Program-made: the position numbers and the translations under genes
From: Vulcanimicrobiota bacterium
Lineage (GTDB): Bacteria; Vulcanimicrobiota; Vulcanimicrobiia; Vulcanimicrobiales; Vulcanimicrobiaceae
Length of the DNA: 64,000 nucleotides
NCBI GenBank assembly: GCA_013036105.1
Contig: JAAXCX010000006.1
Span: forward strand, 62,001 to 126,000
Direction: 5' to 3'
The notes under the pieces: model-generated
Told to the model about the DNA's origin: nothing
The model's input: only the letters and a program-made list of their open reading frames with translations
Database searches by the model: none
Part shown: positions 18,900 through 20,563 of the stretch, one piece after another
How the letters are laid out: the number at the start of each line of letters is the position of its first letter
Position numbering within the stretch: the stretch's first letter is position 1

Positions 18900-19391
18900 A
18901 TGGAACAAGGATCGCTTCCGACGCTGCCCGCCTACCCGATTAAGGAACGCTTGGAGATCGACGGCATCAACGTACTGCTGCTCAACGTCCCGCCCGATCA
19001 AGCGTATCCTCAGAACCTTTTCGGAGTAACCGAAAAAGGCGACGTGCTCTGGCAGGTCGAGCCGCGGTCGCCGGCCACGCCCAATTCGCGTTACACGTCG
19101 ATTCGCGACGAGGTCGGCGTGATCGTCGCGCGCACCGAAGACAAGCTGCAGCGCAAAGTCGATCCGAAGACCGGAAAAGTGCTGGCCGAGGAGCAGGCGG
19201 CCGACTATGGGTCGTCCCTTGACGGTACCCCTTCCCGATGTGGTATGCTCCGTAAGCCGAAGTGGGGCCACGGGCCCTCACCGGATGCCCTAGGGCGATC
19301 CGGTCTTCATCGAGGAACCGCCGGCCGGTTTGGGATGATGGGGTCACCGACTTGCGGCGATGCCCTTTTTTATTTGTCAAAACAGGAGTAA
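18900..19391 (+). CDS. Hypothetical protein running into the infC leader
   Basis: The first roughly 105 residues look like a folded domain: LPTLPAYPIKERLEIDGINV, a NLFGVTEKGDVLWQVEP strand pair, YTSIRDEVGVIVARTEDKL and VDPKTGKVLAEEQ, reminiscent of single blades of PQQ/NHL-type repeat proteins. I do not recognise a named family. The remaining roughly 55 codons have unlike composition (Gly/Ser/Arg-rich) and coincide with the structured leader of infC; the stop TAA at 19389 lies 4 bases before the infC start codon. Either the gene truly reads through the leader or its tail is degenerate. No Shine-Dalgarno precedes ATG 18900. Confidence 0.55.
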   Translation: MEQGSLPTLPAYPIKERLEIDGINVLLLNVPPDQAYPQNLFGVTEKGDVLWQVEPRSPATPNSRYTSIRDEVGVIVARTEDKLQRKVDPKTGKVLAEEQAADYGSSLDGTPSRCGMLRKPKWGHGPSPDALGRSGLHRGTAGRFGMMGSPTCGDALFYLSKQE

Positions 19392-19395
19392 TGCC
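19225..19395 (+). promoter_or_regulatory. Structured leader of the infC-rpmI-rplT operon with attenuator hairpin
   Basis: A GC-rich leader precedes infC. Its last element is a hairpin, GGGTCACCG (19341-19349) facing CGGCGATGCCC (19355-19365) with small mismatches, followed by six T (19366-19371), i.e. an intrinsic terminator placed just before the ribosome-binding site AGGAG (19384-19388). Ribosomal-protein L20 operons in many bacteria are controlled by leader attenuation or L20 binding, so this is probably an autoregulatory leader. It overlaps the tail of the ORF at 18900-19391. Confidence 0.6.
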
Positions 19396-19968
19396 ATAGC
19401 TCGACCGCTCAGAATAAACGACCAAATCCGCATCCGCCAAGTGCGCGTGATAGACGAAGACGGAACGCAACTTGGGGTCCTTTTCACGGAGGACGCACTC
19501 GCGCGGGCTCGCACCGCCGGGCTGGACCTCATCGAGGTTTCACCGACGGCATCGCCGCCGGTCTGCAAGATCGCCGACTACGGACGTTTGAAGTACGAGC
19601 AGTCGAAAAAAGACAAAGACGCCCGCAAGAAACAAAAGAGCTTCGAATTAAAAGAAGTGAAGCTCCGGCCGAAGATCGAGACGCACGATTACGAGACGAA
19701 GGCCCGCATGGCCGAACGTCTGCTGCTCGACGGCAGCAAGATCAAAGTCACGATCATGTTTCGCGGACGAGAGATAACCTACACGTCCTTCGGAAAGCGC
19801 CTCTTGGATCGGATGGCTGAAGATATGACGCCGATCGCCACGATCGAACGCGATGCAAAACTCGAAGGAAAGAACATGTTCATGATCCTGGCGCCCCGCT
19901 CGGTGCCTACCGGTCCGCCGAAGTTCACCAGCATGGCTGCCAAGGACAAGGAGAAGAAAAGTGCCTAA
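19396..19968 (+). CDS. infC: Translation initiation factor IF-3, probable AUA start
   Basis: IF-3 binds the 30S subunit, prevents premature 50S joining and rejects non-canonical start codons. ARPLRINDQIRIRQVRVIDE is the classic N-terminus. The N domain is followed by the KKQKSFELKEVKLRPKIETHD linker and the C domain ending near EGKNMFMILAPR; 190 residues. No ATG, GTG or TTG fits. The codon at the homology start is ATA 19396, placed 7 bases after AGGAG. IF-3 genes are known to use rare start codons such as AUU for autoregulation, so AUA is plausible. A longer read from 19360 would begin inside the terminator hairpin. Confidence 0.93.
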   Translation: MARPLRINDQIRIRQVRVIDEDGTQLGVLFTEDALARARTAGLDLIEVSPTASPPVCKIADYGRLKYEQSKKDKDARKKQKSFELKEVKLRPKIETHDYETKARMAERLLLDGSKIKVTIMFRGREITYTSFGKRLLDRMAEDMTPIATIERDAKLEGKNMFMILAPRSVPTGPPKFTSMAAKDKEKKSA

Positions 19969-20167
19969 GATTCGTACCCACCGCGGTACAGCCAAACGCG
20001 TAAAGGTCAGCGCCAACGGGAAGGTGACGCACCGTCATCAGTTCAGCGGCTGCGGCCACATTATGAGCAAGCGTACGCGCAAGCGCAAACGCAAGTTCCG
20101 TAAAGATCAGCCGGTCTTCCCTGGAGATCTGAAGCGCCTGGCGCCGACGATCCCCTACCTGCTGTAA
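19961..20167 (+). CDS. rpmI: 50S ribosomal protein L35
   Basis: A small basic large-subunit protein of 68 residues. It starts MPKIRTHRGTAKRVKVSANG and ends LKRLAPTIPYLL; HRHQFSGCGHIMSKRTRKRK is the L35 signature. The start is GTG 19961, overlapping the infC stop by 8 bases, so it is translationally coupled to IF-3. It is the second gene of the conserved infC-rpmI-rplT operon. Confidence 0.97.
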   Translation: MPKIRTHRGTAKRVKVSANGKVTHRHQFSGCGHIMSKRTRKRKRKFRKDQPVFPGDLKRLAPTIPYLL

Positions 20168-20176
20168 GGAGCTCGC

Positions 20177-20533
20177 ATGGCACGTATTAAACGCGGCGTC
20201 CACGGACTCAAACACCGCCGTAAGGTCATGAAGCTCGTCAAGGGCTTCCGCGCCGCCCGCCGGCGCAACTACCGGGTCGCGAACGAAGCGCTGCTTCACT
20301 CGCTGGCCTATGCGTACCGCGACCGGCGCGTGCGCAAACGCGATTTCCGCTCCTTGTGGATCAGCCGCATTAATGCGGCCGCGCGTAAGGAAGGCCTGAG
20401 CTATTCGGTCTTCATGAATGGTCTGAAAAAATCGGGTATCACGCTCAACCGCAAGACGCTGGCGGAACTGGCGGTCTCCGACGCGGCGGCCTTCGGGTCG
20501 CTACTGAAAACGGCGAAGAACGCCGTGAAGTAA
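20177..20533 (+). CDS. rplT: 50S ribosomal protein L20
   Basis: An rRNA-binding assembly protein of the large subunit, 118 residues. ARIKRGVHGLKHRRKVMKL, the basic N-terminal extension, is followed by FRAARRRNYRVANEALLHSL and DRRVRKRDFRSLWISRINAA. A GGAG precedes ATG 20177. L20 is the usual autorepressor of this operon in bacteria, which fits the leader upstream of infC. A strong terminator follows immediately. Confidence 0.97.
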   Translation: MARIKRGVHGLKHRRKVMKLVKGFRAARRRNYRVANEALLHSLAYAYRDRRVRKRDFRSLWISRINAAARKEGLSYSVFMNGLKKSGITLNRKTLAELAVSDAAAFGSLLKTAKNAVK

Positions 20534-20534
20534 A

Positions 20535-20563
20535 AACGAGGGCGAAAGCCCTCGTTTCTCTTT
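20535..20563. terminator. Bidirectional intrinsic terminator after rplT
   Basis: AACGAGGGC-GAAA-GCCCTCGTT (20535-20556) is a perfect 9-bp stem with a GAAA tetraloop followed by TCTCTTT. Read on the minus strand the same stem is followed by TTTTA, so it also serves the convergent gene ending at 20562. Confidence 0.92.

Follow-up and report, generated by a model that had tools for sequence, protein, structure and literature searches.

An AUA start codon behind a divergent, probably L20-sensing leader at infC in a family of Eremiobacterota

The DNA analyzed here, which we call the window, is a 64,000-nucleotide stretch of a Vulcanimicrobiaceae contig that carries an infC-rpmI-rplT operon on its forward strand. 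The first gene, infC (19396–19968, +), encodes translation initiation factor IF-3 and matches TIGR00168 at 211.4 bits (cut-off 60) as well as PF00707 and PF05198. It is followed by rpmI for ribosomal protein L35, with a GTG start (19961–20167, +; TIGR00001, 56.9 bits), and by rplT for ribosomal protein L20, with an ATG start (20177–20533, +; TIGR01032, 147 bits); all three TIGR models score above their cut-offs. A simple scan places the operon-end terminator, a 10-pair stem with a T-rich tail, at 20534–20557 (+). Two TonB-like genes lie upstream of the operon. An open frame at 18900–19388 has no NCBIfam match, and its 3′ end is doubtful because the frame overlaps the promoter and leader of infC. 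For comparisons, f1 denotes the window's own family, an Eremiobacterota lineage, f2 the other family of its order, f3 a sister family met elsewhere in the same class, and f4–f16 the remaining phylum.

The first-pass annotation had proposed that infC starts at ATA, 7 nt past an AGGAG, and comparison with relatives bears this out. In the window, the ATA (19396–19398, +) is in frame with the IF-3 N-terminus and 7 nt from the Shine-Dalgarno AGGAG (19384–19388, +); the 16S rRNA of three f1 genomes ends in GGATCACCTCCTTTCT, which contains CACCTCC. The start codon is ATA in 82 of 83 f1 genomes, with one locus (L009) having it one codon earlier, and ATC in the remaining one (L026). By comparison, ATA makes up only 48 of the 988 internal isoleucine codons (4.9%) of the same infC genes, and at the nine internal isoleucine positions occupied in 60 or more genomes it never occurs more than four times. 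ATA at this place is therefore more than chance. A Shine-Dalgarno match of 4 nt or more is present in 79 of the 83 genomes and absent from four; in 70 of the 79 its register places it 6 or 7 nt before the start.

A longer protein, with the isoleucine internal, is the least probable of the alternatives that we weighed. An in-frame ATG at 19360 does open onto infC in the window, and it could in principle serve as the start, as could another upstream codon. Yet this ATG is present in only two of the six genomes of the genus that were read (the window's and L032), lies inside the 3′ arm of a terminator hairpin, and is not preceded by a Shine-Dalgarno sequence. In 39 of the 83 f1 genomes the frame is closed upstream by a stop codon, and no ATG, GTG or TTG separates this stop from the start codon; in 15 of these 39 the stop is within eight codons of the start. 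In these 39 genomes the stops exclude longer canonical starts, in agreement with the earlier observation that no ATG, GTG or TTG fits the N-terminus. An internal isoleucine codon would also be expected to be ATA about 5% of the time, against the 82 of 83 seen. Only slightly less remote is the suggestion that the two-codon frame AUG-CCA-UAG at 19391–19399 serves the AUA start as a decoy or for coupling: three other f1 genomes (L014, L113 and L178) share an AUG at this place with the window, but it is absent from the other 79 of 83, and in the window just 2 nt separate it from AGGAG.

Beyond f1, the start is likewise non-canonical. Of 132 phylum genomes with an IF3_N match, 129 starts were read, one locus per genome; one gene cut at a contig end (G055) and two fragments (G063, G087) were left out. 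Starts outside f1 were assigned by eye, and four loci missed by the regular expression (L003, L006, L161 and L219) were read by hand. The codon is ATC in 3/3 f2 genomes and ATT in 14/14 f3 genomes. Among the 29 genomes outside f1–f3, 24 have ATT, two ATA (L007, L154), two ACG (L005, L159) and one ATC (G139, in both copies), so that 46 phylum genomes beyond f1 carry a near-cognate ATC, ATT, ATA or ACG. ATG, GTG or TTG at the start place was found in 0 of the 129, ATG at the same place in relatives being what would have spoken against the original proposal; this count takes ATT as the start in one f7 locus (L013), where an in-frame ATG lies two codons earlier, close to the Shine-Dalgarno sequence. 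As read from these sequences, infC appears to have a near-cognate start that is conserved as non-AUG both in f1 and across the phylum. The apparent ACG starts come from single genomes of f5 (G056, locus L005) and f11 (G065, locus L159), and infC starts with ATT in two other f11 genomes. The f14 genome G139 has two IF3 genes (loci L161 and L185); both have an extended N-terminus and appear to start at ATC.

The region in front of this start codon has the parts of an attenuated leader. A putative promoter, with a −35 box TTGACG (19219–19224) and an extended −10 element TGgTATGCT (19241–19249, +), belongs to a conserved block that runs in the genus alignment from TTGAC...TGgTATGCT through to the start codon. 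The stretch first singled out, 19225–19400, omits this −35 box. Of 79 f1 leaders, 67 have a promoter-like pattern immediately before the RNA, compared with 2 of 395 shuffles. A terminator-like site is found in 80 of 82 f1 leaders, one leader of Ns having been left out, compared with 53 of 410 dinucleotide shuffles; the criteria for both patterns were set after the leaders had been seen. In the window this putative attenuator consists of a hairpin (19340–19365) followed by TTTTTT (19366–19371, +), and the earlier claim of an intrinsic terminator before the ribosome-binding site is upheld by the family-wide count, the window's own fold being unremarkable. A simple scan of the window alone listed neither element: it allowed promoter spacers of 16–18 nt and would miss the 19 nt spacer here, and the terminator stem is imperfect. 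Folds of the window's leader region are no more stable than those of shuffled sequences (z of −0.77 and −0.76), and in the minimum-energy fold the terminator is retained but the P1 helix of the core described below is lost. The attenuator, as a prediction, is thus visible only by comparison across f1, not in the window alone.

Between promoter and terminator lies what appears to be the core of an L20 leader (19258–19304, +): AAG-N-(A/G)G, a helix P1 (19264–19269 paired with 19273–19278), C-ACC, and a helix P2 (19280–19304). This layout matches the AAG-N-AG/P1/CUC-ACC/P2/GGU core of the Rfam L20 leader consensus, RF00558. The Rfam model itself does not match the window at its gathering score, nor at E values up to 10 within 19150–19450. 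Matches to CRISPR-DR20 and snoRNA families near the infC leader scored far below their gathering scores and were attributed to chance. In other families of the phylum RF00558 does match infC leaders, below the gathering score. A whole-genome search with an E limit of 1e-3 gives matches in 18 of 148 genomes, one of them over the cut-off (G068), and 13 of the 18 have the match at infC; the only f1 infC leader is that of G034, at 33.1 bits. Matches away from infC in four genomes (G001, G126, G058, G131), and extra matches elsewhere in G060 and G061, were taken as chance, and G133 has a match with no infC found. At E up to 1, there were no matches in the three f1 loci, one f2 locus and eight f3 loci given to the search.

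We compared the leaders with two further models. The first, R1, was built from 17 L20 cores chosen by motif pattern and judgement, eight from other families of the phylum and nine from outside it (records whose titles mostly name Bacillota or Clostridiales, one being Desulfovibrio and one Eisenbacteria), and contains no f1, f2 or f3 sequence. With filters off, R1 matches the window at 19258–19306 with 20.3 bits (E = 1.4e-6 in 501 nt). Run over 100 sources at the default filter settings, R1 recovers all three f2 leaders (39–47 bits) and 10 of 83 f1 leaders in the correct position, the window not being listed. On whole genomes with stricter filters, 30 of 148 match, including all four f2 genomes and no f1 infC leader; the one f1 match (G124:C377) lies elsewhere. 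This match and one in G132:C110, neither of them at infC, were taken as chance, as were two away from the leader, at L021 2626–2672 and L209 909–939. The second model, R2, was trained on 54 f1 cores plus one f2 core, and its match to the window (19258–19305, 66.1 bits) is to a training sequence. Of 25 sources with a canonical L20 core, R2 also matches 14 at that core, with E values from 1.4e-7 to 0.33 and with L090, L089 and L106 as the best. At 48 bits or more it finds the element in 84 of 148 phylum genomes (80 f1 and 4 f2), some of these strong matches having been compared with the position of infC; six extra matches are weak, at 25–29 bits.

The stems show the substitution pattern expected of paired RNA. 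In an alignment of 55 cores (of 74 distinct modules, the ones whose P1 was not too long for alignment), 97.6% of the P1/P2 pair cells are standard pairs, and 65 cells have double changes, compared with 20.8 in shuffles; none of 500 shuffles reached as high, and P1 carries most of the signal. Covariation of the leader, one of the checks suggested at the outset, thus speaks for P1 and P2, while the fold of the window's sequence, the other half of that check, does not stand out. Four loci yielded no module: L015 (insertion), L166 (contig end), L180 (Ns) and L215 (insertion and contig split). L015 and L215 have extra sequence between the L20 leader and infC; the core is still on infC's contig in G031, and in G104 the R2 match is on another contig.

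Taken by structural class, that is, by its core, its covarying stems and a terminator before the ribosome-binding site, the element would count as an L20 leader; by the Rfam gathering score it falls outside the family. We conclude that it is a divergent L20 leader, very probably one that senses L20, and the likely ligand is the L20 made from rplT of the same operon. It is improbable that the leader is instead an attenuator for some other ligand or a plain constitutive terminator. Such readings would sit well with the unexceptional fold of the window and with the absence of an identified antiterminator, but the L20-leader layout, the model matches in both directions, the covarying stems and the L20-encoding operon speak against them.

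The search for an antiterminator in f1 yielded no convincing candidate. A 5′ sequence, GCCGAAGC, is the complement of the GCUUCGGC that many terminators contain, yet its duplex with the terminator of its own genome (mean −15.63) gains little over duplexes with those of other genomes (−15.18). A UNCG loop closed by C-G, present in 58 of 79 terminators, explains the GCUUCGGC-type sequence without an antiterminator, and this pairing was not adopted.

Next to the core, f1 leaders carry a further predicted hairpin, P3 (19315–19331, + in the window), with a CGG(C/U) loop. P3 is separate from the terminator in 67 of 79 f1 leaders, a count of the hairpin itself that has no shuffle control; a looser count of 77 of 79 includes ten leaders in which the hairpin is the terminator itself, and we use the 67. 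CGGY lies in or beside the loop in 63 of these 67, compared with 26% for shuffled loops. All 79 f1 leaders begin with 5′ GCCGAAG, and the GCCG could pair with the CGG(C/U) loop of P3 as a pseudoknot, an idea that comes from complementarity without covariation. In relatives, the 23S rRNA has ACCGAAG and, after it, UCGGUAG, and mimicry of a 23S rRNA helix by the leader is possible.

The other two families vary this theme. In f2 (L003, L004, L006) the L20 core is nearly canonical, with AGAAGC/GCUUCU in L004, and there is no T-run after it. Attenuation is therefore not universal, since f2 has the same L20 core without a T-run, and control in f2 may be translational or may use another expression platform. 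The f3 leaders (L123–L130, L201–L203, L209, L211 and L212; for example L124:998–1055, −), upstream of infC, have no linear core. All 14 instead contain CCUUCG-C-ACC-[P2]-GGU-spacer-AAGA-CGAAGG, in which the order of the strands is the 3′ strand of P1, then C-ACC-P2-GGU, then AAGA with the 5′ strand of P1. Their P2 has seven pairs, one bulged base and three pairs, the P2 layout of the linear core. A model trained on these 14 leaders, R3, gives one match per genome in 14/14 f3 genomes and none in the other 134 of 148, and R1 gives a weak match overlapping the f3 element in 5 of 14 (E from 0.008 to 0.18). By our criterion, a terminator-like site follows the element in 10 of 14.

Covariation in the f3 stems is mixed. 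Over 13 distinct sequences, P2 has nine double-change cells versus 3.6 in shuffles, and a covariation score of 0.127 versus 0.061, neither reached in 500 shuffles. Two other P2 measures do not differ from shuffles: three pairs have a double change versus 2.0 (111 of 500 shuffles as high), and there are five further pair types versus 5.5 (427 of 500). The P1 helix is invariant and so says nothing for or against pairing. From these sequences, it is likely, not proven, that the f3 leader is a circularly permuted L20 core. Within the literature searched, we found no paper on a circularly permuted L20 leader and none on infC in Eremiobacterota.

Both halves of the arrangement have counterparts in better-studied bacteria. 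Non-AUG starts of infC are described as ATT in Escherichia coli and ATC in Streptomyces, with IF3 autoregulating its own translation (PMC5472188), and as ATT in Listeria (PMC13068326). In Staphylococcus aureus, ribosome density enriched by retapamulin is reported at an AUA start of infC, and the authors suggest IF3 autoregulation (PMC13009471). Bacillus subtilis infC is described as combining an ATT start with L20 attenuation (PMC6097659), in which L20 binding promotes a terminator before infC (PMC10931766, PMC6097659); E. coli infC itself is described as not L20-controlled (PMC10931766). The likeness to S. aureus is in the gene, the AUA codon and the extended Shine-Dalgarno sequence reported there (PMC13009471). 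That case is from another phylum and its start was located by retapamulin ribosome profiling, whereas here it is located by comparison over 82 of 83 f1 genomes. The E. coli and Streptomyces genes share a near-cognate start and, as described, IF3 self-repression (PMC5472188), but differ in the third base of the codon and, for E. coli, in the lack of L20 control (PMC10931766). With B. subtilis the operon, the leader before infC, the core layout and the terminator before a non-AUG start are shared (PMC6097659), while here the P1 sequence is free to vary, P2 is rewritten, P3 is added and RF00558 does not match the window.

The AUA codon might simply be a start that lowers expression, without IF3 feedback, a reading that we think improbable, if less so than any other alternative considered here. 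Low output alone could be selected: in S. aureus, non-canonical starts of three genes besides infC are reported to give roughly 10% of the AUG level in poor medium, with up to 30% for one of them in rich medium (PMC13009471). Against this, the gene is infC itself, and the E. coli AUU-to-AUG change abolishes autocontrol, as stated by the title of a paper cited in PMC5472188. The non-AUG identity also persists although the codon varies between ATA, ATC, ATT and ACG across the phylum.

We favor, with a probability of roughly 0.85, a reading in which infC-rpmI-rplT has the promoter at 19219–19249, a divergent L20 leader, a terminator favored by L20 and then an AUA start limited by IF3. The promoter would drive all three genes, with the divergent L20 leader forming the 5′ end of the RNA. 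Free L20, the product of the third gene, would bind the AAG-N-AG/P1/CACC/P2 core and favor the terminator at 19340–19371, so that an excess of L20 would end transcription before infC. Transcripts that read through would be translated from AUA, a codon rejected by IF3, so that IF3 would limit its own synthesis. The gene identities, the position and conservation of the AUA, the conserved covarying leader and the conserved terminator were obtained by computation. The binding of L20, termination upon binding and repression by IF3 at AUA would follow by analogy with E. coli, B. subtilis and S. aureus, and it is on these terms, comparative for the elements and borrowed from other bacteria for the regulation, that the two layers of control first proposed for this locus are supported.

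The finding is ordinary in kind, a near-cognate infC start behind an L20 attenuator. The AUA start is not in itself new; it adds one more example to a known class, with broader comparative backing than one species offers. What is new is the divergent L20 leader in this phylum, in a form that Rfam mostly misses, together with the likely permuted version in f3. As to how it arose, we consider it somewhat better than an even bet that the L20 sensor is ancestral in Eremiobacterota and was rebuilt twice. In f1 the stems would have been rewritten, for the most part past what Rfam can recognize, and P3 added, its CGG(C/U) loop able to pair with the invariant 5′ GCCG and perhaps copying a 23S rRNA helix; in f3 the core would have been circularly permuted, with a changed order of strands building the same binding core. 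The non-AUG infC start would have been kept throughout, giving an L20 loop on transcription and an IF3 loop on translation.

For annotation, gene finding limited to ATG, GTG and TTG would misplace infC starts in this phylum. For the IF3 loop, the start codon drifts among AUA, AUC, AUU and ACG while AUG stays avoided, as would be expected if selection acts on discrimination by IF3. If the permutation in f3 is true, it would likely be a naturally occurring case of circular permutation in a regulatory RNA that binds a protein. L20 motifs have been reported to occur in Firmicutes and Thermotogales only (PMC3766115), and PMC6097659 likewise places them there; the leaders described here would extend the L20 leader beyond these groups, to a phylum of uncultured bacteria.
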